Part shown: in pieces, positions 3,193-64,000 of the stretch
Position numbering within the stretch: position 1 is the stretch's first letter
Layout: each line of letters begins with the position of its first letter
Origin: Acanthopleura granulata
Taxonomy: Eukaryota; Mollusca; Polyplacophora; Chitonida; Chitonidae
DNA length: 64,000 bases
Direction: 5' to 3'
Assembly: GCA_016165875.1 (NCBI GenBank)
Contig: JABBOT010000080.1
Coordinates: 30,499,326 to 30,563,325, forward strand
Program-made: the position numbers and the translations under genes
The notes under the pieces: generated by a model
What the model was told of the DNA's origin: nothing
Databases searched by the model: none
The model's input: the letters and a program-made list of their open reading frames with translations, nothing else

Positions 3193-3238
3193 ATGGCGGC
3201 GAGGGAGCTTTTCCTAATTCTACTGATCACATTTGCAG
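3193..3238 (+). CDS. Gene A exon 1: signal peptide
   Basis: The ATG at 3193 opens MAARELFLILLITFA, a short basic n-region followed by a hydrophobic core, then one base (g) before the donor gtaacg: 46 nt, phase 1. The trailing g joins aa at 5326 to make a Glu codon. Genes B and C have signal exons of exactly the same length and phase, which supports this start. An upstream in-frame ATG at 3151 would only add residues before the hydrophobic core. Confidence 0.75.
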
Positions 3239-16519: not shown

Positions 16520-17390
16520 TCCAATTGCCATCGTGCTGCAGGACAGTTCCGATGTGTTTATGGGACTGAGTGCTCATCAGTTCTACGCCATCAAAATACA
16601 ATTTTGGATGTGACGGGTCAGACATATCAGAAGATAGAAAGTTTTCGCCTCATTAAATGTCGCAAGCCACTTGCTAGCCCAATTTGACAATCGGACAAGA
16701 TCACAATTAATTTTAGTCTCGTAACTTGATAAATTAACCATTTCTTCAGATAAAGATGTATAATCTGCGAATATGTTAATATCACATTCAATATTCGTAT
16801 TAATATCATTGACAAAAATTAAAAACAGAAGAGGGCCCAACAGAGAGCATGAATTGGGTAAGGTTCATATTCAACACCGTTAAGACACACTTTAAATTTC
16901 CTGTCACATAAGTAATCTTTGTAATCAAGTAAACAGTGGATCCTCAGTACCTATTTGCTGTAACTTCAACAGAAGACCGTCATGTTAAACTTTATCAAAG
17001 GCCTTACTGACATCTAGAAATATTAAGCATTTATCATTTCCACTGTCAAGACATTTGTGTATGTCATGTTCTATTTTCGTTAACTATCGAATAGTTCGAA
17101 TCGCCATGTTTAAATCCAAAGTTATTTGGTGTAAGAATCTTACTCGTCATACAATACAAATTCTTTTTTTAAAAATGGTGCTTTTAAACGACCTCCTTCA
17201 ACACTTTAGAGAGAAAGTGTTGAAGGGACACTAGTTGATAATTATATATATCATGTCTATCTCCTTTTATAAACACAGGACAGATGGCTTCCATGCTGTT
17301 GGAAACACAACTGATTGTAATGAATAATTTAACAGACTTGTTACAGAGGATGCAATACAATAAACAGTATTTTTTAGCATGAAATTGTTT
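16520..17390 (-). pseudogene. Degenerate LINE reverse transcriptase relic (CR1/L2-like family, copy 1)
   Basis: Minus-strand fragments in order: a D-SKAFDKV-H type segment near 16960-17060; LLFLIFVNDI then NIFAD near 16760-16840 (catalytic second Asp altered to Tyr); WASKWLATFNEAKT near 16640-16690; and SHKHIGTVLQHDGNW at 16530-16600. Frameshifts and stops break it up. The same family occurs at 35700-36660. It has no visible 5' end. Confidence 0.7.
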
Positions 17391-19428: not shown

Positions 19429-20930
19429 TTGCACTATGCCAAATCAGTGCCCGTGGAGAATGGAGTGCCCCAGGGCAGTGTCTTGTCCCCAACTCTATTT
19501 AATATTGCTGTCAATGACCTACTTAGTGTCCTATCAGCTAAACATAAATGTACTCTATTTGCAGATGACAAAGTCATGTGGTGTATTTCGAGAAATGTTA
19601 AATTGAGTACCAAATATATCCAGCAAGGTTTGGGTGACATTGCTTGGTGGAGTCTTAAATGGGGGATTAACTTCTCGTCTATAAAAACCGAAGCAGATAT
19701 ATTTACCAGGAAGACCATACAGTATGTTGTGATTACCTTAAATAATTCTCCGGTCATACATTTTTCCTCTTTCAGATATTTCGAGGAGGTACCCTAAGCA
19801 TATTGACTACATCGAAATTAAATACAAGAAAGCCATCACTTTGATGAGGTATGTCTCTCTTAAGAATGGGGTGCTGACAGGCACTGTCCTCAGTTATTGC
19901 AACGTTCCCTCATTCGTTCAAGGCTAGATGACTGCTGTCAGGCTTACAACACGGCCTGTGTCAGGCCTGACTCTAAGCTTGATACCATTCAGTGTGTGGT
20001 GCTGTGGATTTGCACAGGGGCAATTCACAAGTCTGATAACTCAGCTTTCTCCTTATTATGCGCTAAAGACCATATCCAATCTAAGTGGTATGAGTGCCTG
20101 CAATTTTACACAGACGCATCTAAATGTCTGGACACCAGTGTGGTGGGAGTGTCATTTTGTGAGCCAGAAATTAAATACAGCAACCGCGCTAAGTTATGTT
20201 CACTGCCGAACTCCCTTTAATTATTAGTGCCTTCCAGTTTTTGACGGAACTAAGGTCAACACGGGCTGTTATTTTTACTGGCTGTCTTTCTTCTTTACAG
20301 ACCCTGTTGAATTTTTCTTGGAACAAGTCCTCTACACTTATTTGAAATACCCTATCTATGCATCACACTTGATTGCCGTGGCGTCTCTGTATCGTTTGAT
20401 TGGGTGCCGGCTCATATCGGTATTCCTGGTAATGAACAGGCGGATCAATTGGCTTAACAGTCTCATGTTTCCTGACATAACGCTCACTGTTCCCTTATTG
20501 CTAAGAGAAGCAATTAACTCAGCAAAGCAGAAGTTCATAGATATCTGGCAGGACGAATGAGATAACTCCGACAAAGGGAGGTTTTTCGTTGAACACGAGT
20601 TACCTTACGCTATGATCTGTCGTATAGTCGTCGTCAGGACGAAGTACTAGTATTTCGACTAATATCCCGTCACTTATCAACCAGTCTATACTTGTCCAGA
20701 TTCGGTTTCCAGGACTGCGTGGGATGTTTCGTGGAGGAGAGTATCAAACACCATATACGTTTGTTTCCTTGTCTTCGCCATGCATATCCCCGGCACATTA
20801 TATTCGCAGAACTACTCCCCCTCGGCATCCGTGGTTTTATCGAAGTTACAGTACTGAGCCCAACGAAGCATCATAATATTATATTTCAACCTATGGCTAT
20901 TTTCCTAACTCCATGCCATAGATTCTAGAC
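19429..20930 (+). pseudogene. Degenerate non-LTR retrotransposon with RT and RNase H
   Basis: The first frame (19429-19797) has VPQGSVLSPTLFNIAVNDL and then FADDK, the reverse transcriptase active-site YADD-equivalent, followed by W-LKWGI-FS--KT. After frameshifts, 19897-20220 continues SRLDDCC-AY. At 20401 in another frame WVPAHIGIPGNEQADQLA is the RNase H domain signature of RNH-bearing LINEs. Near 20700-20800 a Cys/His-rich C-terminal knuckle-like segment appears. Multiple frame breaks mean it is dead. No poly-A tail or target duplication was identified. Confidence 0.75.
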
Positions 20931-28789: not shown

Positions 28790-28975
28790 ACAAAACCAGT
28801 TGGTAGACAGACCGATCTTGGTTGGATTGAATAGAGATAAGGACATTAGGACTACATTAAGTAGAGATAACAGCATTAGGACTGGATTAAGAGGAGATAA
28901 CAGCATTAAAGTTGGATTAAGTGAAGATAACGGCATTAGAGTTGGATAAATGACCTGGACCAGGACGTTTTAGTC
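28790..28975 (+). other. Gene B 5' leader exon (untranslated part)
   Basis: A strong polypyrimidine tract and acceptor (tttctgcag) end at 28789, followed by acaaaaccag, four 30-bp repeats, then the gene B ATG at 28976. Gene C has the same arrangement at 60148 (gcaaaaccag). This implies an upstream non-coding first exon removed by splicing. The leader holds an upstream ATG at 28949 opening a 7-codon uORF (MTWTRTF) that stops just before the main ATG and could reduce translation. Confidence 0.55.
28824..28943 (+). repeat. 30-bp tandem repeat, four copies, in gene B leader
   Basis: Four consecutive 30-bp units start at 28824, 28854, 28884 and 28914. Each begins ggatt(g/a)a(a/g) or a close variant, holds gagataa and ends in cattagg/cattaaag/cattagag-like sequence. 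Gene C's leader holds only one full unit (60182-60211) and a partial second. Copy number has therefore changed between paralogues. Confidence 0.85.
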
Positions 28976-29021
28976 ATGCAGACCAGACCCATCGTCCTGA
29001 TTTTGTTTATAGTCACGTTAG
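28976..29021 (+). CDS. Gene B exon 1: signal peptide
   Basis: Encodes MQTRPIVLILFIVTL plus one base before donor gtaagt: 46 nt, phase 1. Gene C's exon 1 is near-identical at the protein level (MQKTHIALIVLIVTL) and also 46 nt from its corresponding ATG. The following intron starts are also alike (gtaagttt and gtaagttc, then gatgaaatgttta). Confidence 0.8.
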
Positions 29022-32000
29022 GTAAGTTTGCCGATGAAATGTTTATTAAAAATATCGGTTGCGTGAACTCCTATTAATGAATCACTTGGGGGTGGGGGTG
29101 GGGCGTGGCAGAATAGTAAGGTGATAGATAACTCTGACCAGGGAGCATACGACGTCTGGGTTTCTTTATCAGTGTCCGTGCATGAGGACCCCTTACCTTC
29201 CACGACTCTTTTGTATTCATCAGCGCATCCAACATGGGAAAGTTCGTTAGTGACATGCCTAAGTTTGAAGGTTTATCCCATTCATTTGGGTTACCTCCAC
29301 TCATAAAACTCACTGTCATCGTATCTGATTGATGGTTTACTCCGCAATCAGGAATGTTTCACGTCGTAGAAACAGGGGAGAGCTTAGGGGATTCGCAGGC
29401 TGCTGGTATACCTTCGCACATACGGTCGTAGAGCAGGGCCCACTTGCACGAAACCCTAGCTACCTGCACGAAGGTAGCCACGTGGTCGTAACGGTAAGAA
29501 GGCTTCGTGCACGTGGGCCCAGGACTTAAACTCACAGCGATGGCGTTGGTGAAATCGTGGCTTGTTGGTCATTGTAATGCACTGGCACGCTTATCCACTC
29601 GGCAACGGAGGCCCCATAAATAGATGGCGATTCAGCCGTAAGTCAACACATCAAAATTTTTTATACAGATAAAAATGACTAAACCTGCTAAAGTTTATGA
29701 GTTTTACGATAGAAATACACCCCAGTTGGTTGCTGTAGTACGTAAATGTAAACCAGTGAGCAATGGGCCATAAACTCAACCTCATCAACCTTTGAGCCCA
29801 TCAGAATTTTCATTTTCGGTTTGCTGCAGTGCCAAGCAAAATGGCATCAACGCATGTACCCTATGGGAAACGGAAACCGACAAGAACTGTCTTGGGAGTC
29901 CATTGATATAAAGCTCATCTTGAATGATCGCAATTAAAGATTCTGGCTTAACAGGGTGAAGTGCTTCTGCTTGTCATCTTGACACTTTATAAACAGCTAT
30001 TTATACCTGTCCTGTAACATTGTAGGTCTCTTGGGAAGAAATGGATACGGCCTATACACATCGGGTAAAACCATTTTATTTTCTCTTTTCTTTTGCTTAC
30101 TAATGTTTTTCACGCCATGGCTAATGTGTTTGTGGGTTCCTGTAGTGATTTTATTGTCCCCATAATGAAAAAGTATAAAAATTTGCATAGGTACTTTTTG
30201 GACATAAAGTGATACCCTTCGTACCATTTTAGTTTTATTTTCAGGTTCCAGGTGGAGCTATCGATACACACCACCTCCAGGTAATGGATTAACCAGTTAT
30301 TTCTTTACAAGGTCTGTCTTTTTCTGTCCATATGCGCCTATTGTAGCAGTGGTTAAGTATAGTGAAGGTGGTATCGTTTACAAGATCCACTGCCATGCAG
30401 GTTGTATGAAGTCACGCGAAGCGGGAAACAGAACGTCGCCAGAGCTTCTGATGTTTGCCGCTACAGTAAACATTTGCTCATCATCTGTCATGATGTCTTA
30501 TCTGTCCTAAATTCATTAGAAAGAAAAACTCCTCTATTACACAGATTTTGATTCAAATAATTTTGGGGCCTCCGGGGCTCAGTCGGTTAGTGCGCTAGCT
30601 CAGCCCAATAACCCGAAGCCTCCCACCAGTGCTGTTGCTGTGAGTTCAAGCCGTACGTGGGAAGGTCTGCCAGCAACCTGTAGATGGTCGTGGGTTCCCC
30701 CCGGGCTCTGCCCGGTTTGTTCCCACCGTAAGGTTGGCCACCGTCGTACAAATGAAATATTCCTGAGTACGGCGTAAAACACCAATCAAATAAATAAATA
30801 AATCAAATAATTTTTTTTTCAAGTGACCTTTCAGTCATTAACGGTTGAAGGAGTGTATGTATGCATGTTGGCTGCCAGTTTTCAATTTACATGATAGTTA
30901 GTGGACATTTCCGAGCTGTCAGTCAAGAATGCGCATTTGACCAATGATAATCAGTATTGTTGCAAGCATGTCAACTAGAAGGCCTACACATTGGCTACAA
31001 ATGTTAAATCTGTTAAGTCATGACGTCACAATTACTTTCATTGGGAATAAAATGATAAGTAACGTTGTCACGCGAAGGGATGGTGGGACATCGGATGTGA
31101 TGGATCGATCCAATCTGTCAACAAGGCGTCTTATAAACTAGTTACACATATTCAGTCCTTCTGTGGCGTCACGACGTCACAATTGCTTTCACCGCTATTG
31201 GAATGAAAAGTAACGTTGTCACGAAAAGGGGTGGTGGGACATCGCATTTGGTGGATCTGCCCGATGCATTAAACTGATACCTTTTCACGCCATAGTTGAT
31301 GTAAAGACATATTGACGGTGGATAAGACAGCTTGTTGTGTAGGTGAGTTGCGAGTGGTTTCCTTTTATTTCTCTGCTTGAGGCACCTCTCAGATATGGGA
31401 TCGCTGGACAATTTGTGAGCTATTCTGTGATCTCATTCTCAGCCTCGGACAGTATATAGGTGAACAATTCTTGGGTACGGCTTAAAACTTCAATCAAATA
31501 AATGAATAAATGAATTGAACAACACGTATGCATAAGACCCAGAAAGTCCTTGGGAAAATTAACGCCAGCTTTAAGTAACTCTTAAAAAAAGTTCCCGAGG
31601 TTGCTTTAGAATACCCATCGGATTCCATTATACCCTGCACAATGATTTGTAGCAGTTCACAGTTTTTCTCCCTAAAATGCCGTCAACTGAATGCAATAAG
31701 TACTAAGATAGCATATATTCAAGACTAAAGTCACCGTGTGCATTACGATTCTTGTGTTCTCAGTTTATTTCTGGATAATATACTGCGTCCGTTGTGAATG
31801 TGAACTTTACTGGGCAAGGGTCACTCTTCATGCTTGGTTAACCTTTTCTACAGAATGCCTGGACGTTGCCATTGTTGGAGGGGGTATAGGTGGCATGTAT
31901 ACCGCTTGGCGACTCCGAGAACGAGGCTTGAAAATCGCAGTCTTTGAAAACACGGATCGAATCGGAGGTCGGATGTTCAGTGTGTTTTTGCCTTCCGTGC

Positions 32001-35000
32001 CGAATGTTCCTGCCGATTTGGGGGCAATGCGATTCCAACGGGGTATACATACCACGTTCGAAAGTTTATTGCCACAACTGGGTCTGCGCTCAGAAATCTT
32101 CCAACCAGACCAGTTCCAGAAGATGTACTATTTTCGAGGAACACGGCTGACTGAAAAGGAACTGAAAGGCTCGAAGATGCCATACCATCTGTCACCGAAT
32201 GAGAGTAAAAATCCAGCGGAGTTGAAGTGGTACTGCTGTTTGTCCAAGCTTCTTGTTATATGAACCCTTGCTGATGTGCAGATTCTTCATAATCTGAAGA
32301 GAAAGCTTGCTATGCGTGTCTTTCAACCGCCGGAACGATTGAGGTGCTGGTTCAAAACCAGTTCAGGATAGGGAATTTGTAGATTTGTCTATTCTCACTG
32401 TTTCTGGGGCCTTAGTTACAATACACACTTAGAAAAGAAGGTGCAGCCATTGAAACATTAAGGATTCTTTGTCTTGCCCCTGTGGTGTCACCTGTAAAGC
32501 TCCATAGAGAACCTTGTCAGTAGGGTTCCCTTTAGCACCCCATACGAGGCCTAAATGGAATTCACGATCGCTGCCTTTTCCAGGGCACTGGCAACCCGAT
32601 ACAAGAAATCGCGCGATGGTATTATCTTTGTACATGAAATATTCATTGCTTGTGAAATCAGTTTCTTACTTCTTTTGGAGTTTAAGTGTGGAAAATTTTA
32701 TTTCTCTTCCCTTATGTCCACAGCCCTGAATTTATATCACTTGTTTGATGGTTTAGGGTTCGACAGTAGAACCCAACCCTCGATCATTGAACCTTCGCAC
32801 TGAGGGGAAAGCAAGTTTACAGAGGATAGCACCCTGGGGTTCGGAAAAGAATGATAAGGTTCTTTATAACACGCTTTCTGAGCCCACCTTTTTGAGCGTG
32901 TAAATGGTGGGCGACGCTCCTGAAATCATTTGCGCAGCCTAGCGTTCCATGAAGACCTCTTGCCTTCCACCAATATGGTGGAAGGTCACGTAGGGAATAG
33001 GCCGTCAGTCACTTACCAAGGTCAATGGTTTTATCCCGAATCATTCCAGTTTTCTCCAAAAGCGCAAATGGCGGCCGTGGCATATAAGTGGCATATTTTT
33101 GAATATGCCGTTAAACTGCAATCAACAGATAAATCTTGGAAAGGTCTGCCAGCAAACTACAGGTGGTGGTGGGCTTCCACCGGTCTTCCTGCCTAAACAA
33201 TGGTGGTGCCAGTTTTACGAAGACGGTGTAAGGCTTCGTCAAAGGTAACTACAATGGCAAAGTATCTCTACAGTATGTGTCGTTGTGGCAATTACGTTTG
33301 ACATAACTTACACCCTTTTTGTAAAACGGGCCCAAGGATTGCGTTCTATAAAGGGGAAATATTCATGAGTACGGCGTAGAACACTAATAAATAAATCAAC
33401 GGCTAGAGCATCTAATGATATGGAAGCATTATGCTCTTCAATTTCAGGAGATTGTCACAGCAGGCGCTGAATACCAGCCGACCAGATCAAATCGCTGACA
33501 TAGAAGAGGCTACAACACCAGACGGAGTCCCGGTATATAAACAAAGGTATTGATAATAGGCAAATTTTTTGAAGTCTGGCCGCATATAGGCAGGTACGAT
33601 CTTATTTTAATTTTAATTTTAATGACCTTGAAGAAGCTAATCATATTTGTCCATCAGTAAGTTCTGTCTTGAGAGACAATAACCACTGCGCAATTAGGCA
33701 ATAAACACTTAGCCACAGTCCACAATGATTTTTCACTGTCTAACAGGTTAACGCTTGGTCTCACGACACTGTTTCCTAATTCTCGGAGCCCCGAACATTC
33801 CGGGCCTGATAATCCTCTAGCACTAAAACAACGCCACTCAATTTCCTGATAATGATTGACCAACGAATTTTTTCCTGACATTTAACAAACAGTTGGTCCG
33901 TGTAAAAAAACAACACTATGAGAGGCCAGTTAACCCTGATTTATCTCTACATTTGACGGGCGTGCCAAACTTCCAGTTTCTGAAAAAGACACACCAGATT
34001 ATCGGAAATGAAACTTTGAACATCTCTACTACAAAATGAAACCATCCAGCGAGAAGAATAAACTAAAAAAAAGCACCCCCAAAAGGCAAAAGATAAAATG
34101 CAACTAGAATTAGCAGGGATTAGCACAACCTTAGTCTAAGCATTACAGCATTTTTCAGAATTCTTTGACTTCTGCTTTCCTTTATCCTGTAGCTATCTGA
34201 ATTTGATGGACAAATTCTGCAGTAATGAGGCTAAGAATTACCTGAGGGATCTGGGGCCTTTCTACTCGCTGTATGACACCAACATCAACGCAGTATATAG
34301 TGCTCTAGGGGCCAGTCCAGGGGCTTCCAAAACCCAGATATGGTCTGTTGTCGGGGGAATGAACGTCATCCCACAACGACTGGCGCAACAGTTCATCGCC
34401 GAAAGTAACAGGTGTCTGTTCTTTGTGTATTTGCTCTTGATTCTGGGTTGTTATTTAAAGGGGCACTCACGAATATTTGTATCGTTATCGCCACGATCTG
34501 GCTACAATATATTGTCACTTTTTCATTAAGTCATATAATCGTTCGATTATTCTTTGTCTGTAGATCGAAATATGAAAGATCCGTTCAGCCAGGCGACTCC
34601 AATATCGTGTGATGTGTCTGTATTCAAAAAATCTGGCCACTTTTTCGAATATAGGCTACATGTAGTATCTGCATGCAGGGATGAATTTAATTAACAAATA
34701 GACTGTAAGCATCTCTGTGGCTTGAATCTGTACTTAACTATTAGGCACAGAGTAATTGCTTGGTTAACTCTCATAAAGCCTTCCTTTTCGCGCGATTTCA
34801 TACCATTTTCTTCCCATCTTCAAACGTAACAAACATAACACGTCTGCATTGCATGATGCATGTCTCGTCTACATTGTCATCCGTATGGAGAATAGAGCCA
34901 AAAGCAGTAACGCCAGTGGTGTAATGTTTTACGTTCCATTCGTTACGTTCCCAGAATTCACCGTTCTGTTACAGGGGAGGCTTCGCCAGTGAAGTCCTTA

Positions 35001-38000
35001 CTGAGATGATGGCGGATGCAGCATAATAATTTATCGCTGGCGTTACTGTTTTGGGCTCGATTCTCTGTACTTAGGACTGTCAGGACCGTGTGATTGCGTC
35101 TGAGTTTAGACGAGATATGCATCAATTTAATTTAACGCTTAATATATTTAGTGAGGATTGCCCACAACCAGTGGTTAATTACATTTAATCACAATAATAT
35201 CTACAAATATATTTCTTCACAAAATGTCACTTTATAAAATAACCTTCGGTTGAAATAGGTAAGAACTGTCTGTAGAGATGTATGTACCTGTACATACACG
35301 CATACATGCGTATTATGTATTATGTAATACCAAATACGAGCATTGTCTTTAATAATGACCGACTCTGTTAGAGGCCAGGAGGTAATTATGAACAGTTTGA
35401 AATTATTTAATATTATCTGAGAGTTCTATATTTTCAGATCCAAAACGTAGGTATGTAGGTATTTAAAACTGAGAAAATGAGCTAAAAGTAAAGACTGGTG
35501 AACTCATGAACACATTGATAGGCGCAGTGTACTCCATGTTAAGAAATGATGTTTCGCTTAGAGATAAATAGTTACAGGATTGATCTCGGATCATATTATA
35601 TTTAAAACACATCGGCGTGAAAATCGCGCAGTCACATCCTCAATCGACCATGCCAAGTACATATGTAGTTATTAAAAACACTAAAATGAATATTCAGCTG
35701 GTTTGACAGGTCTGTCAGTCGTTGAGAAGATCTCTACTGATCATAAGTTCAGAAAGAATAACATTATTCTTAGGTTGAGCAAGATACTTATCGTCAGCAA
35801 ATACATTTATTTTGCACTCTATATCATTGTTTATATTTGTTATTTACAAATATTAGATACAATAGAGAGTTAAAACAGAACCTTGTCGTACCCCAGAATG
35901 GGTGTATTCATGACGCTCCATTTACACATACACTAATATGATCTATCATACAACTCAAATTCCTCTCTTATTTCGACCGCTATATATTATGAACAATCTG
36001 AATTGGCTAGCTCAATGCTAAATGAGGTGGGTGTTTGGCCAGGGCAGTTATTTGGGGTTTGGATTCCAATAAGTCTTAGCGTCTACACTGGGATCGAGCA
36101 GTTTCAGTTTTACAGAGGGTTTGTAACTCCTAATCTTATTTTGCCGCACTGGCTAGCCAAAAAGAAATGGAAGTTGTCGTGATCGGACTTGGTACAATTA
36201 AACTTTTTCAACCATCTGTCTTTAATTCGAAATTTTTGTCGGACGTCATTAGCCACCCAAGGTTTATCACTTGGTCTTGATAACTGTTTTATTTGGGCTA
36301 GTCTGAGCACAACACGAAAGAAATAATTTCGTCCACGCGGTCCACTTTTCGTCAATAAAATAGGAAATGTCTATAGTTAGGTCAAGCGGTGCAATTTTTA
36401 TACAATACAGTTGTGTGGAATTTGTTACGTTTGTAGATGGAAAGAAAATACTATGGGCTTCAAGCGAAGAAGTATGCTTGATCTGAGTTGACCAAGCAGT
36501 GTCTCTGTGGCTAATAGTGAAGTATAGGTCGAGCCAAAGAGAGACACATGGTTTACGCGATAAAACTTTGCTACTTCCATTATAGACGAGACTGATGTGT
36601 AAAATGAAAGCATCGTAAAGCAAGAACCTCAAACATTATTTGTTATTAACTGGTAAATCAGTTTAAAATTAACCACCTGGGGCTAAACTCCGTGTTTATA
36701 ACAACATATAACTTCGATTATGGTGTGAGAAAATACATTACTGGAATAGGCACCACAAAATCCGTCTTAAGCTGAGCATGAAATGATTCTTAACTTGTGA
36801 CCTTTTTCCGGATTTTATATCTGATTGGAAGCAAGATTTTTTATCATTGTCAAAACAGTAATTACACCAAGTATTTGTGTTAAAGTTGCGATGGTTGCTC
36901 ACGAATTTAGCAATTCAAACTTTTCTGACCGGAAACCTTGGTCATTTCTCATGATCCTGGTATTTGGTCAGTTTACATCTGAAAATATACCATTTTGCAT
37001 CGAATATTATCAATGCTATTTTTAGACTCTTTTCTCTGCTTTACAGGCATGTTATTTATCTGAACAAAAGAGTCCATTCAATAAGAAAAATATGGCCAGG
37101 AGGACGACCGGTGTACGAACTGTTGATATTTGATACTGGAACCCTGGGGGGATACACGAGGGATAAAAGGGTATGGGATAATATGCTTACGGTCTGTACG
37201 AAAAGAACCTAGTATGGTGAGACAGAGATTCAGCCTCAAGGACCTACGATAACAAAGAGCAAATTTCCCGATAAAAGGGTAAATATGGGATAATGTGCTT
37301 TAAGGGCTGAAAGAAAAGGTATATGATGAGGCAGAGAATCGGCTCATAAAATAGGCCTGCCATCAGAAAGAGCAAATTTCAAAATCCCAGCAGTAAAAAG
37401 TACAATAAATTCCAAGTGAAGTATAAAAGCCAGTACCGTTTCCTTGTCATGAAAGATGTGGTGGACAAGGTATGCATGTGATCCGCGAAAAGGCATTTAC
37501 GGTCGGAAATACGCATTTCTGGTTCGCAACAAGGCACTGTTTTTATTTTTTGATTATTGAAGATCGACTTTAGCCATAAATATGTTTATTGCTGCAAGTC
37601 TTTGTGTGTTATCAGAGATTTGGTTTGCTTCACGATTATCTTCATGCGTAAAACATAAACTTTATAGTGAGGGTTTCAGGCAAAGTTGGGAATCCTTCAC
37701 AGAATAGCGAATTAACGAAGTAGAACAGGTATATCTCTTTCAGAGAGACTGAGTGTCCTGGTAGTATTTTCTATTTTAATGAAAACATACTTTTGCGTGG
37801 GTAAAGACATGTCCTTGTTATGTCCTACTTGTATTTAATGTTTCCATTAGTGGATAATTGTGAAGGTGTGCCAGCATGTAACATTCGATAACTACGCAGA
37901 AATCATCCGAAGACAAAAGATATTCCAGCGTTACTAGAAAAACCTTTATCTGATTTTATGACTTATGTAGCGCCAATACGGGAACAAAAATCTAGCTACA

Positions 38001-40483
38001 TTACCTGTTTGGTGCTTTAGCACAATCGCCATAGAAGAACGGAGTAGGGGTAGGCCGCGGGGTGAAGGAGTAAAACCTAACAGTAAAAACAAGTGGTTTT
38101 ACCAGCAGTTTTGTGCACCGTTCCTTGCAATTTGACCGGTTTCCCGCCTTATCATATCAAGTTCTTTAAGTGGACACGAATGAAAAATAGGTTTGGAATG
38201 TAAAAATAGTGCAATAGGCTCACCTAAAATACCGCTGGGCTAAAGGGGCAGTTATTTCCAAAAGATTAGGAATTTGACAACGGAAAGGGGGCACAGGCCA
38301 AACAACCATGAAAACTCATGTCAAGGTCAATGAAAAACAAGATGGCTCTTCTACAAGACTACACGAAGGTCAATCAAAAAAGAGGTTACTGTCATGGACA
38401 GTTGTGTTCATATTAGCTTACGCTACAAAAACTTGTTGACTGCCCGCTCTTTGCAGGCATTTGCCATTCAGAAATGGGTGGCGTATTCTACTAGTGACAA
38501 CCTGTCTTTGAGCTATATTATCAACGAATTATTAACACATGCATTTTGTCCCGGCCTTCGACTAAATCAGTGGTGAAACTAATTACCTGTAAAAGGATAC
38601 CCTGCAAAAAAGAATGCAATTTTACAGCGCAAAGGGGTGTAAAATGGAACAGTGAATTCAAGGGTAAAAATAATGTTGCATTTCTTGGCAGTAGTGAACA
38701 CTTTATTCCTGTAGGATTTTAAGACATGACGCAATGTTCATCAACCTGTAAATTTACAAATGTATTGCCCGTAAGTCCAATAACCAGTGTCATTCTTCAC
38801 GTTAAAGAGATGTTACTGAGAGGTGAACTTGTTGTAAAAATGCAGTTAGCTTTGTCTCAACAGCAACGGGTAAATATTCACCAAAAATTACTGGTTACGA
38901 AATTTCCAGCACTTTTCTTTGTAAAACTACATTTTTTCTTTTGCAGTGTACCCTTATGACTTATTCCTCATTGTAACAGTGCGAAGTTTAAAAACCTTCT
39001 CATATTTCCCCTTAGACTACAAGAACAGGTGTCTGTCAAAGTGGCAAATTGTTGAATTGATAATGCATAAAAGTGGCATTTTTCTGCTTTCTAACTGGAC
39101 CTTGAGAGGGGAGCTCCGGAAGGCAGTTTCATAAAAGTGACTTGCTCCCAAAGCTACTTCTCGACTCTCTGTCATCTGACTGGTGGTTATCTTTTATTTA
39201 TTCATTTGATTGGAGTTTTACGCGGTGCTTTATTAAACATTTCACTCATGAGACGGCGGTCAGCATTATACTGTGGGAGGAGACCGGAAGAAGCAGGATG
39301 TTGAGGTTGATGGCAGACTTTTCCACGCACGACAGAATAAAGTTGTCAGCACTGTCGGATAGTCTGTTATGTTATTAGGTGCAGAGTTCGTTTTTATCCC
39401 TGTGTGAGCTACCTCATGAACACATGTACGTCGGAAGGTTAAGGGTTGTATCCGAACGGAAGTGGTGCACAAAAATGTGATACCGTGAAAACGAAAGTGT
39501 AAATATGAATCGAACGAATTCCATCGCATTTGTCAACATTTTTACATAACTATTGCGTTGAAAGAATATTATAAATAACAGAAATTCCGAACAGTGAAAA
39601 ACATGGAATATGAAAATAAAGGTTGTGGAATGAAACAAATGTTTAGAGATCAGTTAAACATACATATGTATCATTTTTTACAGTTACATGAATTTTCCTT
39701 GATTACTGCATACTGCGTAGTCACGAGTAATTACTTGAGCCTGTCTGCTTCTCCTCAGCATTCGCCTTGTTTAACACAACACTCTCGTTCCAGATAAAAC
39801 CAAGGCGGATTTGCGCTTATCAGGTGATTCTCGCTCTTCCTCCGGGGGCTCTGAAGAAAATCCAATGGGGTCCGCTGCAAGACCTACCTGTACAGAGGGC
39901 ACTGAAATCCGTGAATGATTTCAGTGCCATGAAAATATTTTTGGCCTATCCAAATGCCTGGTGGGATAAATTGCCTTTAAACTACAAAGCCTTCGTCACA
40001 GATCTTCCACTCCGACAGGGTGGAGAGTTCGGTCGTTTTCGAAACTCGTCGGGTCACGAGACAGCATTATTACTAGCCTCTTACGCTGATACAGAGGAAA
40101 ACAATGACTTCTGGAAGCATCTTCGCAATCCCTCGACCAGCATTTCGTCGCCCATCGTCCCGGCTGCGTTTTCGGTCAGTACAAAAGTTGTAGAGCACGT
40201 GCATCATCACTTGGCAACGATGTATAACGTCAGTGCAAGCTCCATTCCACAGCCGATAGATGGCGTAATGCATATTTGGGATGATCCGCAAAACGGAAGA
40301 GCTTGGCAGATACTCAAACCTGGTTACAAGCCAAAGGCCGCGGAAAATTTTATTCAGCGACCCTCTGCATCTGATAAAGTGTTCGTCGTCACCAATGCTT
40401 TCTCCAGACGATTCTTTGGTTGGGGTGAAGGTTGTCTCCGGGTAGCTGATGATATTCTTCGACAATTCTTCAATAACATATAA
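28976..40483 (+). CDS. Secreted LAAO-type flavin amine oxidase, gene B (seven coding exons)
   Basis: Coding exons: 28976-29021, 30245-30280, 31854-32229, 33448-33546, 34193-34411, 37047-37170 and 39794-40483; 1590 nt, about 529 residues. All splice sites are GT-AG and the frame stays open. Five exons match gene A exactly in length and phase; the extra one is a 36-nt mini-exon. Features: signal peptide 1-15; GGGIGG at 36-41; DRIGGR ending at R67; DLGAMRF with R87; VVGG in exon 5; VILALPP in exon 7; C-terminal VTNAFSR and FGWGEG. The GW-EG part of the FAD motif is better kept than in gene A, but Thr-Asn again replaces Gly-Glu. Likely role, by family: secreted oxidase producing hydrogen peroxide; substrate unknown. 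Introns carry SINEs, a LINE relic and small inverted-repeat elements, none of which breaks the coding frame. Confidence 0.87.
29328..29620 (-). mobile_element. SINE family 1, reverse, interrupted by a small inverted-repeat element
   Basis: Degraded 3' domain (ggaatgtttcacgtcg) and reverse body up to about 29435; after an 85-bp insertion the head continues with cttaaactcacagcg and ends cggcaacggaggcccc. In gene B intron 1. Confidence 0.65.
29436..29520. mobile_element. 85-bp MITE-like element nested in a SINE
   Basis: Termini gggcccacttgcacgaa and ttcgtgcacgtgggccc are inverted repeats of 17 bp with one mismatch. It interrupts an older SINE, giving relative age. No coding capacity. Confidence 0.7.
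30245..30280 (+). CDS. Gene B mini-exon (36 nt, phase 1-1)
   Basis: Acceptor ttattttcag ends at 30244; donor gtaatg starts at 30281. With the split Gly codon it reads GSRWSYRYTPPP, then a g that joins aa of the FAD exon as Glu. It is symmetric (phase 1-1), so it can be skipped or duplicated without a frameshift. It resembles gene C mini-exons in its WSY core and in the shared donor gtaatg. Confidence 0.72.
30565..30808 (+). mobile_element. SINE family 1, near full length, in gene B intron 2
   Basis: Head ggggcctccggggctcagtc and gagttcaag, body gtctgccagcaacctgtaga, tail attcctgagtacggcgtaaa and caaataaataaataaat. Not present at the matching point of gene C as far as can be seen. Confidence 0.85.
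31019..31265 (+). repeat. Direct repeat of about 150 bp in gene B intron 2
   Basis: tgacgtcacaattactttca at 31020 recurs as cgacgtcacaattgctttca at 31172; both continue agtaacgttgtcacg and ggtggtgggacatcg. Confidence 0.75.
31445..31516 (+). mobile_element. SINE family 1 3' end fragment
   Basis: gaacaattcttgggtacggc, then ttcaatcaaataaatgaata. In gene B intron 2. Confidence 0.65.
31854..32229 (+). CDS. Gene B exon 3: N-terminal FAD-binding domain
   Basis: Acceptor tttctacag ends at 31853; donor tg|gtactg follows 32229; 376 nt. Encodes ECLDVAIVGGGIGGMYTAW, VFENTDRIGGRMFS and ADLGAMRF. Protein and nucleotide similarity to gene A exon 2 is very strong, including the exact ends. Confidence 0.9.
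33139..33400 (+). mobile_element. SINE family 1 split by a MITE-like element
   Basis: Left half ggtctgccagcaaactacag (33139-33205) and right half gaaatattcatgagtacggc with aataaataaa (33334-33400) are consecutive parts of the same SINE, separated by an inverted-repeat insertion. Confidence 0.65.
33206..33333. mobile_element. MITE-like element, gttttac-terminated family, copy 1
   Basis: gtgccagttttacgaagacg at the left is mirrored by acaccctttttgtaaaacgg-gccc at the right, giving imperfect inverted termini. Same family at 41363-41472. Nested inside a SINE. Confidence 0.65.
33448..33546 (+). CDS. Gene B exon 4
   Basis: Acceptor caatttcag ends at 33447; donor ag|gtattg follows 33546; 99 nt, phase 2-2. 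Reads RLSQQALNTSRPDQIADIEE and onward to DGVPVYKQ. Matches gene A exon 3 in length and sequence. Confidence 0.82.
34193..34411 (+). CDS. Gene B exon 5: central domain with VVGG motif
   Basis: Acceptor tatcctgtag ends at 34192; donor ag|gtgtct follows 34411; 219 nt, phase 2-2. Carries SNEAKNYL, DTNINAVYSALG and VVGGMNVIPQRLAQQF. GG followed by a Pro and helix is typical of the family. Confidence 0.86.
35700..36660 (-). pseudogene. Degenerate LINE relic in gene B intron (CR1/L2-like family, copy 2)
   Basis: Minus strand. At 36632-36267 the tail of an endonuclease-like frame; at 36355-36110 DKPWVANDVRQKFRIKDRW, the typical linker between endonuclease and RT; then near 35770-35890 RQGSVL and an FADD motif after NDIECKINV. 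The residues around FADD closely match copy 1 at 16.8 kb (NIECDINIFAD). It lies in the intron between gene B exons 5 and 6, opposite strand. Confidence 0.6.
37047..37170 (+). CDS. Gene B exon 6
   Basis: Acceptor gctttacag ends at 37046; donor agg|gtatgg follows 37170; 124 nt, phase 2-0. Encodes HVIYLNKRVHSIRKIW and ends GGYTRDKR. The sequence around the donor is repeated about 108 bp downstream (37270 onward) with a second donor-like gtaaat; reading on from the first donor meets TAG, so the first donor must be used. Confidence 0.8.
37162..37380 (+). repeat. Tandem duplication of a gene B exon 6 donor region
   Basis: Copies 37162-37269 and 37270-37380 both start gataaaagggta and end agagcaaatttc. 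The first contains the real exon end; the second carries an extra donor-like site inside the intron. Confidence 0.75.
39188..39350 (-). mobile_element. SINE family 1, diverged reverse
   Basis: ttcatttgattggagtttta, then tttcactcatgagacggcgg and gtgggaggagaccgg. In the last intron of gene B. Confidence 0.7.
39794..40483 (+). CDS. Gene B exon 7: C-terminal oxidase domain and stop
   Basis: Acceptor ctcgttccag ends at 39793. Frame runs 229 residues from IKPRRICAYQVILALPP through NAWW, VTDLPLRQGGEFGRF, DGVMHIWDD and LKPGYKPK to VTNAFSRRFFGWGEG, then TAA at 40481-40483. Strongly conserved with gene A exon 6. Sequons NSS and NVS are present. No canonical AATAAA was seen in the next few hundred bases. 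Confidence 0.9.
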   Translation: MKPRRICAYQVILALPPGALKKIQWGPLQDLPVQRALKSVNDFSAMKIFLAYPNAWWDKLPLNYKAFVTDLPLRQGGEFGRFRNSSGHETALLLASYADTEENNDFWKHLRNPSTSISSPIVPAAFSVSTKVVEHVHHHLATMYNVSASSIPQPIDGVMHIWDDPQNGRAWQILKPGYKPKAAENFIQRPSASDKVFVVTNAFSRRFFGWGEGCLRVADDILRQFFNNI

Positions 40484-45675: not shown

Positions 45676-46906
45676 TTCTGTGTACTCAGAAAAAAAGCAT
45701 CAAGTACCATTTTTTAAATTGTGGTACCAGTATGACGTGAATTTTGAACTGTATCACAGATCACTCGACACCAGGTCGTCATTCCACGCACTTCTCTATT
45801 ACTGTAAGATTAGAGTAATTTACAATTGTATCTTTATTGTTGATTGTGTTTTATCATTCATGGCATTGTAGCTAAATGAGGAGGAAACCAGAGATCCAGG
45901 AGTAAATTATTGACCTTTGGGAAGTAACAGACAAACTTTCGCACATATGATTTCAAATTGTCTGCTCCCATTCTTATTAAATTGGCAAATTGTGTTATAA
46001 TTGACAAAGTCAGCACTCAAAAATCTGGGGAAATTAGAAATAGCTGTTTATGCAGCTAGCCTCTAAGTAGTAGTATCTGGTCTTTGAAAATAAGCGTAGA
46101 TTGGGTATGAGATGTGGATGGGGAACAAACTAAAAGTCACAAATTTAAAGACAGCCTGACACAGTGTACCTAAATTAGTGGAATGTACAGGCCTTGGAGA
46201 ATAAAAGACATGCACATACCTGAAACATAGTTTGAATTTTTGTCTGAAGTTTGCCACACTGAATGAGAGATATCTGTAAAAATAAGGGTATGATTGTCTT
46301 TAATAAGACCTCCTTAATTATTATACTGGTGCAATTTGGGGGCAATCAATAAGCTTAAGAACAGATTTATATATTTACAACGTACTGCAATTAAATTCAG
46401 ATTACGGGGCTGGTTAAATCACAAAACAAGGATGGTACAAAACCAAAAGGAAACTTCATCAATCAGTTAAACTGATAAATAATTACAAATCCTTTTGTAA
46501 TGTTATGTCAAATTTTCAAGTCAGTGGCTATTTTTTACCTGTGAAGTAATCCTTTGACAAGTAATGTAACAAATCTGAAAAGTTCACACGTGACAATCAC
46601 AACGTCACAAACAGGTCTGTGCCCACAGGTTCCACAGGTTGTACACTGAACACAGGCAACTTCTGTTGCTATCCTAGGTTGAAAGAAAAACGGATCCAAA
46701 CTGAGATCAACAATGTCACAAACTTCATAGAAGGTCATGTCTGATACATAGCCTCCAGTGTACTGTTTCACAATGAAATGAACAGAGTCAGATGTTGTCA
46801 CAAGAACAAGGAGTATCCTTCCAAAGATTAGACTGTGATCTATTTTATGAACTAGAACTGTGCGTGGTCTATATTCTATATACCACGTACAGTTACTCGG
46901 TCAACA

Positions 46907-47509
46907 ATACAAGTGTCATTTCCAGAAATGAGGGCATTACACTTAACAAGAGGTCATTATACAATACAAGTGTCACTTCCAGGAATGAGGGCATTACACT
47001 TAACAAGAGGTCATTATACAATACAAGTGTCATCTCCAGAAATGAGGGCATTACACTCAACAAGAGGTCATTATACAATACAAGTGTCACTTCCAGGAAT
47101 GAGGGCATTACACTTAACAAGAGGTCATTATACAATACAAGTGTCATCTCCAGAAATGAGGGCATTACACTTAACAAGAGGTCATTATACAATACAAGTG
47201 TCACTTCCAGGAATGAGGGCATTACACTTAACAAGAGGTCATTATACAATACAAGTGTCATCTCCAGAAATGAGGGCATTACACTCAACAAGAGGTCATT
47301 ATACAATACAAGTGTCACTTCCAGGAATGAGGGCATTACACTTAACAAGAGGTCATTATACAATACAAGTGTCATCTCCAGAAATGAGGGCATTACACTT
47401 AACAAGAGGTCATTATACAATACAAGTGTCACTTCCAGGAATGAGGGCATTACACTTAACAAGAGGTCATTATACAATACAAGTGTCATCTCCAGAAATT
47501 AGGGGATAA
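46907..47509. repeat. 57-bp minisatellite with higher-order structure
   Basis: About ten and a half units of 57 bp (19 codons). Two unit types alternate: one with cat(t/c)tccagaaatg, the other with cacttccaggaatg. A second variation, cactcaac against cacttaac, splits the first type so that units 3-6 and 7-10 form two nearly identical 228-bp blocks. Because 57 is divisible by three, long repetitive open frames arise on both strands without implying a gene. Confidence 0.95.
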
Positions 47510-60243: not shown

Positions 60244-60289
60244 ATGCAGAAAACACACATTGCCCTGATTGTGTTAATAGTCACGTTAG
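60244..60289 (+). CDS. Gene C exon 1: signal peptide
   Basis: Encodes MQKTHIALIVLIVTL plus g before donor gtaagt; 46 nt, phase 1. Most residues match gene B exon 1, including the shared ending LIVTL/FIVTL-G. The alternative start at 60235 adds MLT in frame. Confidence 0.75.
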
Positions 60290-62328
60290 GTAAGTTCACT
60301 GATGAAATGTTTATAAACATGTCGGTTGTTTGAGATCACTTTGATGAATCATTTGTGAAACGGGTGTGCCTCGGTGGTAAGACAAATATGGCATGTGTAT
60401 CCGCATCTCCAGCATGGGAAAGTTCGGCATGGACTCCCAACTTAAGGTAGGAGGTTTTCCTCGTTAATCTGGGTTTCCTCCTTTCATATAAAAGTAGTGA
60501 ATTCTTCAGTATGAATTTTTTTCGTACAATTTCATAAATGTATATATACCAACCCAGGATGAAAGTTAATTCTTCGCATAACTAGGAAAATATCTGTGCA
60601 TTTATGTATGTGTGTGTTTGGTTTTATGTCGTACGTGACAATTTTTGAGTCATATGACGTCGAAGAGTCCTTAGTCTTGTCCAGCTCCGTTTCTTTGCTC
60701 TATAACCTTTCAGTGTTGAGCACCAAGCGAGGCAGCTACAAGAACCATTTTGGAAATCTTTGGCATGACCGGACCCAGGCTTAATCATGGATCTCCCCAC
60801 CTCGACACTATCATCTTTTACAAACTGGACTGATGGGATACAATGGTAACACCGGGAAGCAATGCTAGAGCTTACGCGCTTTCACGCCAAGTCAGATGTC
60901 CTTTTTGAACGACGTTTGCAGCCCAAAACAGATGTCAACTGTGCTCTTACCTCTCAGTGCGGCCGCACGCACAACATCGCATGTCTATTTGATTGGGTAA
61001 TGGCACTCCAGCCCCATACTCGCGACAGGAACAAGTATTTTCCAATTAATCGGCCATGATGTGCGTATTTGAGGCTTAACGCGCATGCGCCGTCACAGGA
61101 ACGAGAACTCGTCAACTTTGGGCTGACGTGCCATTACTGAGTGGAATATACGTGGGGTGTTGTGTGTGCGGCCGAGCTGAGAGGTAAGAGCCACAGTTGA
61201 CACCTGCTTTGGACTGCTAACTTCGTTCAGAAAGGACTTATCTGAACTGGTGTGAAAGCGCGTAAGCTCTAGCATTGCTCTTCACTGTGGCTGTGATATC
61301 CCATCAGTCCAGTGTATAAAGGACGGATTGAAATGCATGTAGCAACCTGGGGCTAGATATTAGCAATTATGAGCTCTAAACAAGTGATCATGACATGTCT
61401 CGAGCTGAGACCACCCCGCACCATGCACCATCTGTAGCCCATATTGTATATATTGTATCGTTGGAATTTTATATTCAGGTTCCGGTTTTCGGCGGAGCTA
61501 TGGACACATCAGACCCTCACATAAAGGTAATGTGTAATGAATTGTTAACCCAATTGTCTGTAAGGATCGGACTTCCGCTATAAAATCGTCGGGCAAGTGA
61601 CAAATAGAACATTAGTAATTCAAGAAACTGAAAAAATAAGCCAATCTATGAAACACCAAAATTTAGTTAAGCATAGAATTTAAAAATACTATCCGTTATT
61701 TGAGATAGAGCATGGTTATATTGTTCCAAAAATGTCTTCAAAAATCATTTAAAAATAATTTTTTTTGTGTAATTGCTTCAGGCGTTTTATCCTCCTAAAG
61801 TAATGCGATAAGAATACAAAAATATTCATATGCGACATACCAACGTTGAATTAAACTTTTGCATCCTTATTTTCAGGCTTCTGGTGGAGCTACGGGCAGA
61901 GCTATGGACACATCAGGCCCTCACAGAAAGGTAATGCGTAATGAATTGTTAACCCAGTTGTCTGTAAAGATCGGACTTCCGCTGTGAAATCGTCGGCCAA
62001 GTGACAAATAGAATCTTTCTAATTCAAGAAACTGAAAAAATAAGTCAATCTATGAAACACCAAAATTTAGCAAAGCATAGAATTTAAAAACACTATCCAT
62101 TATTTGAGATAGAGCATGGTTTTATTGTTCATTTAAAAAATGTCTTCAAAAAATCATTTAAAAATAATTTTTTTGCGTGTAATTGCTTCAGGGGTTTTAT
62201 CCTCCTAAAGTAATGCGATAAGAATACAAAAATGTTCATATGCGACATACCAACTTTGAATTAAACTTTTGCATCCTTATTTTCAGGTTTCTGGTGGAGC
62301 TACGGGCACACACGGTCCCGACAAAGAG
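60244..62328 (+). CDS. Gene C, third LAAO paralogue: 5' part only (signal exon and three mini-exons)
   Basis: Coding exons visible: 60244-60289 (signal peptide), 61479-61526, 61877-61930 and 62287-62328, all joining in phase 1 with GT-AG sites. Identity as an LAAO paralogue is inferred from the near-identical signal exon, homologous leader and first intron to gene B, mini-exons of the same type, and a block at about 63705-63795 homologous to gene B intron 2 (30352-30445). The FAD exon is not in the window; by collinearity it should be roughly 1-2 kb past the right edge. If instead the downstream exons are absent, this would be a separate secreted-peptide gene. The predicted extension, about 45 residues rich in Trp, Tyr, Arg and Lys, is far longer than in gene B. 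Confidence 0.65.
60635..60800 (-). mobile_element. SINE family 2 fragment in gene C intron 1
   Basis: cgaagagtccttagtcttgt, ttgagcaccaagcgaggcag, catgaccggacccaggctta. Lies just before the large inverted repeat. Confidence 0.6.
60824..61313. repeat. Large inverted repeat (foldback) in gene C intron 1
   Basis: The left arm begins actggactgatggga at 60824 and the right arm ends tcccatcagtccagt at 61313. Both carry agcaatgctagagcttacgc, then gcgctttcac, gtcaactgtg-ctcttacctctca and cggccgcac- in mirrored order, with a central spacer near 61010-61120. Arms are similar but not identical. No transposase is visible; a non-autonomous foldback element or inverted duplication is likely. Confidence 0.8.
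61479..61526 (+). CDS. Gene C mini-exon 1 (48 nt, phase 1-1)
   Basis: Acceptor atattcag ends at 61478; donor gtaatg starts 61527. Reads GSGFRRSYGHIRPSHK. The exon and the intron after it repeat almost unchanged at 61877-62286. The second half (SYGHIRPS-K) is shared with mini-exon 2. Confidence 0.68.
61877..61930 (+). CDS. Gene C mini-exon 2 (54 nt, phase 1-1)
   Basis: Acceptor ttattttcag ends at 61876; donor gtaatg starts 61931. Reads GFWWSYGQSYGHIRPSQK. Its first half matches mini-exon 3 (GFWWSYG) and its second half matches mini-exon 1 (SYGHIRPS-K), so it looks like a composite of the two. Confidence 0.7.
62287..62328 (+). CDS. Gene C mini-exon 3 (42 nt, phase 1-1)
   Basis: Acceptor ttattttcag ends at 62286; donor gtaatg starts 62329. 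Reads GFWWSYGHTRSRQR. The upstream intron end is almost identical to that before mini-exon 2, but the downstream intron diverges, marking the end of the duplicated unit. Confidence 0.68.
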
Positions 62329-64000
62329 GTAATGCGTGATGTATTAGTATGACTATTTACAAGATAGAACTTACTGTACAGAACCTCCTGGAGGTGGCAA
62401 ATAGATTGTTATTAACATGTACCTAAGGGTCAATATTCAGGAGGTGGACTCAGTGATTAGTACGGGCTAGCAACTGTTTCTGTGTGTCTCAGAAGGAGTC
62501 ATGAACTGCACCGTTATCCATGTATACTGGTCTTTTCAAGCAATTCAGAAAACTAAAATATACGTCATTCTATGGAAGGCAAAAATCTCAGTACAGAACT
62601 GAGTTTAAAAATTCTTTTTTTCAATTAGATTTTTCTTCATTAATAATGTGCCAGTCGTCCTTTAAAATTAATTTATTGTATAGTTTTTAAAGTGCAGAAG
62701 TTTTTTTTTTTTAATCCTATTTCATCAGATGTTATTCTGTGCTTTACATGTATATTTATTTATGCCACTTTTATCAATGTTATTTATGATTTATATGCTC
62801 AAATTGAAAATTTTGGTGCAAAGATTTCAAAAATGTTTCTGCCCAAGCGCGGCTGGTTTCATTGTCAAAATCATTCCAAAGGAATGTCAGTATTAAAATG
62901 TTTCTTGCAGAAGACATGCCTACCATCATTTTGGATATTCGGAGTAAGTTAACTATGTAAATGAGAAATAAAATGACCACAGTCATTAAACTCCTAACAC
63001 AACAAATGTACTTCATTACCTGTAACAGCATAGACAACACTGTACTTGTTTTCAGACACATGTGAGCAACGGACTGTTATCTCAAACCAAAAGTCTAAAC
63101 CTGAGATATAGTGTATAGTATTACGTGTATTTGTACCTTGAGTAGGGCGTACAACATTGAATATATAAGCTAACTTGCGTCCATATAATGACTAATGTGC
63201 TCAGTATCAACGCAGTGCGGGTCAGGGATGCGATGGGAACCAAGTCCGTCTCGTTCAAAGTGCTCGCCTGCCGCAACTGCATTTGTCCAATTGTAATGGC
63301 TTTTACGAAGAGGTTGATGGCCTTAGACCAACCACATGGACTTTTACATGTGGGTGTGACTTAACGTTCCCGCCTTGGAATCTGGATGAACTGAGTGAGT
63401 GAGTGCTTGGGGTTTAACGTCGTACTTAACAATTTTTCACACATATGACGACGAACAGTCCTTCTGGTGTTTGCATATACAGTGTGTCTTCTTGTAGCAG
63501 GGCGAGTCCATGCCGCCATTGGAACATCAACACCCCACCCAGTCACATTATACTGACATCGGGCCGACCAGTCCTGTTTCCTTGCTCTGACCTCCCAATG
63601 CTGAGCGCCAAGCGAGGGAGCAACAAGTACCATTTTTATAGTCTTTGGTGGTCGGAGGAACACAAGTTGTTCATCTTAGCCGACTGCAGCAGTTGTTTAG
63701 AATTGTGAAGGATCTTTGTGTTTACAAGATCCATTCTATGCAGGATGTATGACGTCCCGAGGGGCGCAGGAGAACATCGTCGGCGTTTTAAACTTAAGGG
63801 CAAATCTACTCTTACGTCGAGACTTTGGCCTCTAATGAATTGTGTCGCATATTTACACTTCGTCATTTTCCTGGTTTTCCTCGTGTCGAAAACCAGGCAG
63901 ATAGCGGGTAGATAAAAAAAAGTTATGAGACGGGAAACGGACTCACAATAAGAGCTGAAATGTAAGAGCTGAAATGTCACACTTGTGCCATATCCTGTTT
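62329..64000 (+). other. Gene C intron after the last recognised mini-exon
   Basis: AT-rich, with a SINE at 63405. 63705-63795 (gtttacaagatccattctat, gcaggatgtatgacgtc) matches gene B intron 2 at 30352-30445 (gtttacaagatccactgcca, gcaggttgtatgaagtc). No FAD-domain exon is inside the window. A 33-nt phase-compatible segment at 62911-62943 is noted but not called. Confidence 0.55.
63405..63660 (-). mobile_element. SINE family 2, near the right edge
   Basis: gtttaacgtcgtacttaaca, atatgacgacgaacagtcct, cagtgtgtcttcttgtagca, gtcacattatactgacatcg. Interrupts the alignment between gene B and gene C introns. Confidence 0.7.

Follow-up and report, generated by a model that had tools for sequence, protein, structure and literature searches.

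A mini-exon slot ahead of the oxidase fold in a predicted chiton L-amino-acid oxidase family, amplified to three exons in one gene

The window, a 64-kb stretch of DNA from the chiton Acanthopleura granulata analysed here as a whole, carries two complete genes, A and B, and the 5' part of a third, C. All lie on the forward strand and are predicted to encode secreted L-amino-acid oxidases (LAAOs) of the aplysianin/achacin type. Gene A opens with a signal exon (MAARELFLILLITFA; 3193-3238) that ends in phase 1, followed by a 39-nt mini-exon of phase 1-1 (ECSVLFENREWTK; 4696-4734), a FAD exon (5326-5701), exons at 6571-6669, 7546-7764 and 8347-8470, and a last coding exon at 9260-9961; it spans 535 codons, mini-exon and stop included. 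Gene B has the same layout, with a signal exon (MQTRPIVLILFIVTL; 28976-29021), a 36-nt mini-exon (GSRWSYRYTPPP; 30245-30280), a FAD exon (31854-32229), exons at 33448-33546, 34193-34411 and 37047-37170, and a last coding exon at 39794-40483, giving 530 codons with the stop. A 30-nt tandem repeat (28832-28947) occupies the presumed 5' untranslated exon immediately before its start codon.

Gene C begins with a signal exon (MQKTHIALIVLIVTL; 60244-60289) and continues with three mini-exons: X (48 nt, GSGFRRSYGHIRPSHK; 61479-61526), Y (54 nt, GFWWSYGQSYGHIRPSQK; 61877-61930) and Z (42 nt, GFWWSYGHTRSRQR; 62287-62328), the last being the closest to the mini-exon of gene B. Beyond the end of the window, at a distance of 1.4 to 16 kb, come its FAD exon (window coordinate 65377) and another four exons. 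These five enzyme exons read open and are 63-91% identical to those of B, exon by exon, so that C can be read as a complete LAAO gene, with 565 codons excluding the stop in nine coding exons, three of which are mini-exons adding up to 144 nt. Within its first intron lies an imperfect palindrome of about 510 nt (60814-61323), 73% self-complementary, that resembles a foldback or MITE insertion. Elsewhere in the window we noted a 57-nt tandem repeat at 46904-47504 (10.5 copies at 93%, three frames open) and two open frames, 19429-19797 on the forward and 16583-16864 on the reverse strand, that by eye resemble reverse transcriptase fragments.

Both complete genes match Pfam PF01593 above the curated cut-off of 19.8 bits: gene B scores 111.5 bits, and gene A, scanned as the protein without its mini-exon, 96.5 bits. 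The FAD motif combines GxGxxG with GGR, and we read it as VGGGIGG with DRIGGR in A and B and as VGGGTGG with DRIGGR in C. By a simple rule, the putative signal peptides of A, B and C have a hydrophobic core and a small-residue -3/-1 site; the same rule finds no site in P0003, one of four Liolophura sinensis models that are the closest proteins found and are labelled aplysianin-A-like or achacin-like. The single gastropod LAAO-like protein compared, Bulinus P0006, showed 26-27% identity.

A protein search of the A. granulata genome returned at least 24 exon matches, which resolve into at least five genes: U, A, B and C in tandem on contig C83, and F on contig C19. The FAD exon of F (C19:5261534, locus L021) appears to have a gc donor, ATG|gcaagt, which would make its intron of the GC-AG type if real. 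The core proteins of B and C are identical at 425 of 502 residues (dS 0.329, dN 0.084). L. sinensis P0001 is about equally close to B (350/447 identical) and to C (344/447), and this suggests, as far as sequence identity can tell, that the separation of B from C came later than the branching-off of Liolophura. Two of the L. sinensis models look mis-annotated: P0001 is without the signal, the mini-exon and part of the middle, and in P0004 a long TVTALAQ-like repeat replaces the enzyme exons.

Each of the five genes found has at least one phase 1-1 mini-exon between its signal and FAD exons. In gene A, the residues of P0002 that lie between the signal and the FAD domain (DCSILFGNRESTE) match exactly 39 nt of intron 1, with AG before and GT after. 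None of 200 shuffles scored as high anywhere, and none of 300 did so with splice borders. The simple splice scan missed this exon at both thresholds, and its donor score is weak (4.8). Gene U has a mini-exon of 42 nt (GVPFRSSAQNSRTS), found by its match to P0003, and gene F one of 45 nt (GFDIQRLLHERPESQ), found by its match to P0004; for each, 0 of 200 shuffles equalled the match, with and without splice borders, and all four swapped queries scored 3 or less. Overall, the lengths are 36, 39, 42, 42, 45, 48 and 54 nt, all multiples of three, with a single mini-exon read in A, B, U and F. A preliminary description of this DNA had given B one mini-exon and C at least three, with coordinates and borders that agree with our re-reading, but it was wrong in leaving gene A without one. 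Nor is the mini-exon a novelty of B and C, since one is present in all five genes found and peptides of equal length occur at this place in three L. sinensis orthologues. What is new is the amplification seen in C.

The splice scan, a simple score whose thresholds were set after the B and C mini-exons had already been seen, returned five candidates on the forward strand of the window, four of them the B and C mini-exons, and one on the reverse strand; looser thresholds gave 14 and 8. Among 200 shuffles of the C intron none reached three candidates, nor four under the looser thresholds, a count in which X, Y and Z are non-independent because they are duplicates of one another. Shuffles of the B intron reached one candidate in 7 of 200 and two, under looser thresholds, in 15 of 200. 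The scan alone also proposes a fourth C mini-exon of 33 nt (62911-62943, forward strand; EDMPTIILDIR), which we regard as unsupported; in the genomic regions compared, this peptide matched nothing but itself.

The arrangement of X, Y and Z records how they may have arisen. A segment running from the tail of X through the intron to the head of Y (61491-61898) is 93% identical to the next one, which runs from the tail of Y through the intron to the head of Z (61895-62308); the duplicated unit is about 408 bp and the spacing 404-410 nt. The duplication thus broke inside exons, making Y a chimera of the head of Z joined to the tail of X, and Y retains the SYG core found in both. In contrast to this close match, the 139 nt around X match those around Z at only 65%, which places the X-Z duplication earlier. 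Two duplications would therefore explain gene C, an older one giving X and Z and a younger one giving Y. In the duplicated intron 329 of 350 sites are identical and 21 differ, indels aside; on the assumption that both evolve neutrally, this divergence would amount to roughly one fifth of the dS between B and C. The mini-exon of B and exon Z are alike across introns that mostly cannot be aligned. Past the mini-exons, an intron stretch at 30325-30447 in B and 63668-63788 in C is 71% alike, with no other match in the window, and before it C has about 1.3 kb more than B.

If the C mini-exons were decayed or unspliced copies, they would be skipped in the mature mRNA, and the prediction that they are spliced does come from a simple score. 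However, X, Y and Z have all kept their frame and both splice sites despite 6% divergence of the duplicated intron, and length-matched peptides are present in L. sinensis models for other members of the family, so that we consider decay quite improbable. A different reading, put forward in the preliminary description, takes the three as cassettes, skipped or included in combinations so that one gene makes oxidases with varied tails. Because every mini-exon is of class 1-1, all combinations stay in frame, and in all five genes, as read from the sequence, the frame is open into the FAD exon whether the mini-exons are included or skipped. Against this, residues equivalent to the mini-exon peptide are present in three of the four L. 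sinensis models (the remaining one differs at its 5' end), and the good splice scores favour routine inclusion; we judge cassette use unlikely. In its fullest form, combinatorial splicing of C would yield up to eight secreted oxidases with cationic aromatic arms of differing length, while duplication inside mini-exons would keep making new arms. This is a shade more doubtful again, but were it true, a single locus would set where hydrogen peroxide is made.

Comparison with L. sinensis separates the length of the mini-exon from its content. Length is equal in all three testable orthologue pairs (39, 42 and 45 nt for A, U and F). Identical residues number 8/13, 6/14 and 6/15 in these mini-exons, 20/42 in total, versus 108/126, 105/125 and 109/126 in the FAD exons, 322/377 in total. 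P0001 was unusable here because its annotated 5' end differs. Given a slot in all five genes and a length kept between orthologues, the mini-exon is, on this comparison, an old family feature with a fast-changing peptide, and gene C with three is the exception. The preliminary description claimed that a family of predicted secreted LAAOs has a modular extension at the N-terminus, made up of symmetric mini-exons that were duplicated, and this is upheld. Its further suggestions, that such exons may be gained or lost at will and that the tails may bind microbes, matrix or mucus, gain no support here. Its description of the peptides as aromatic and strongly basic holds for B and C and fails for A and F. 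Net charge (K/R minus D/E) is -1 in A, -1 in F, +2 in U, +2 in B and +9 summed over C, and -2, +2 and +4 in the L. sinensis orthologues of A, U and F. Charge varies among genes and orthologues and is thus not a family trait. The F pair (-1 versus +4) and the negative values of both A orthologues argue, at the level of sequence, against a conserved cationic role.

These features bear on whether the peptide does anything beyond separating the signal peptide from the fold. A neutral spacer, constrained in length and free in sequence, would share the architecture and origin described above and would involve no tethering. It would account for the low identity of the mini-exons beside that of the FAD exons and for the change in the sign of charge between the F orthologues. 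It would also fit the young duplication, in which exon parts differ at about the intron rate, with two synonymous changes and one other in 17 codons; three changes in 17 codons are too few for selection to be demonstrable. By contrast, a WSY core common to B and C, a CS..LF.NRE core common to the A orthologues and the absence of any length change in the three pairs speak against complete freedom. We put the spacer reading a little short of even odds.

The predicted structure of a relative is also consistent with a spacer. An AlphaFold2 model of P0002, the orthologue of gene A (30 sequences), has a mean pLDDT of 91 with residues 1-26 below 50, and its first strand begins at residue 31, while the mini-exon residues end at 28. 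The arm is probably disordered, as judged from this model, in which low pLDDT is not proof of disorder and which represents a relative, not the C arm. Since the arm ends before the first strand, the slot would lie immediately outside the folded part, at a place where insertions cost little; the amplification in C could then have become established by drift, a symmetric insertion into a disordered terminus being harmless. Foldseek placed a bacterial arginine oxidase and an ancestral LAAO as the best matches of the P0002 model.

We conclude that the architecture, the origin and the routine inclusion of the mini-exons, taken jointly, give the best explanation, with a probability of about 0.68; architecture and origin are read from sequence, while we infer inclusion, secretion and tethering. 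The scores of the alternatives refer to what each of them claims and do not compete with the architecture. In the reading we prefer, the chiton LAAO family would have an old class 1-1 small exon between the signal-peptide and FAD exons, encoding a fast-evolving, probably disordered N-terminal arm of 12-15 residues that ends just short of the enzyme fold. In gene C, X and Z would go back to an older duplication, and the chimeric Y to a younger one in tandem, whose breakpoints fell at non-equivalent positions within X and Z. The mini-exons are most likely included as a rule, and C, if spliced as read, would make a secreted LAAO with a basic aromatic arm of 48 residues and net charge +9, as against 12-15 residues in the other four genes.

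Such an arm may tune where a peroxide-making enzyme sticks. A basic aromatic arm could hold the LAAO on anionic surfaces, and tethering, taken as a step of its own, is a tentative proposal that we think rather doubtful. The mini-peptides diverge fast and the charge of F is not conserved, and the peptide may therefore have no specific binding role; a tolerated spacer and a surface-holding arm seem to us about equally likely. The repeats might instead mark a multi-copy peptide precursor, in which proprotein convertases would cut at the basic repeat ends to release short aromatic cationic peptides along with the enzyme. The last residue is K in X and in Y and R in Z, G or E follows each time, and the repeated units resemble multi-copy precursors. 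But the unit ends lack a dibasic site and the other four genes have one mini-exon each, and we hold this to be very improbable.

Before a conserved oxidase lies a family-wide exon slot in which short peptides turn over fast, and in C an exon-making event is caught at the nucleotide level, as a chimeric exon from a duplication with both ends within sister exons. Should the arm matter, gene C would be a natural test of adding a targeting peptide to an enzyme that produces a diffusible oxidant; if not, it would be a clear example of a spacer that is simply tolerated.

We found no description of small exons, or of their amplification, in LAAO genes in the open-licence literature, and the terms exon, intron, signal peptide and chiton are all absent from one study of gastropod LAAO genes (PMC6303269). 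The chiton genes resemble those of aplysianins, achacin and escapin (PF01593) in their amine-oxidase fold with FAD motif, their predicted signal peptide and the names of their L. sinensis orthologues. Antimicrobial action is ascribed to the LAAOs aplysianin and escapin, and the molluscan LAAOs described owe it partly to peroxide (PMC2866484). Among solved structures, those of a bacterial arginine oxidase (PDB 8jt7, 8t8a) and of ancestral LAAOs come nearest to gene B in sequence. Schistosome micro-exon genes comprise 10-20 very short exons and have been associated with alternative splicing; the likeness lies in short exons placed after a signal peptide, most of them divisible by three in length, and in aromatic and basic residues that soon follow it (PMC10526429). 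The chiton genes differ in having, as read from the sequence, one to three mini-exons ahead of a conventional enzyme. With three mini-exons among nine coding exons, as against 10-20 very short exons, gene C is not a gene of the schistosome type. Tandem duplication of symmetric exons is a general mechanism, and gene C resembles it in its adjacent head-to-tail copies of class 1-1 exons with flanking intron. It differs in that the breakpoints fall inside the exons, which makes the new exon chimeric and not a plain copy.
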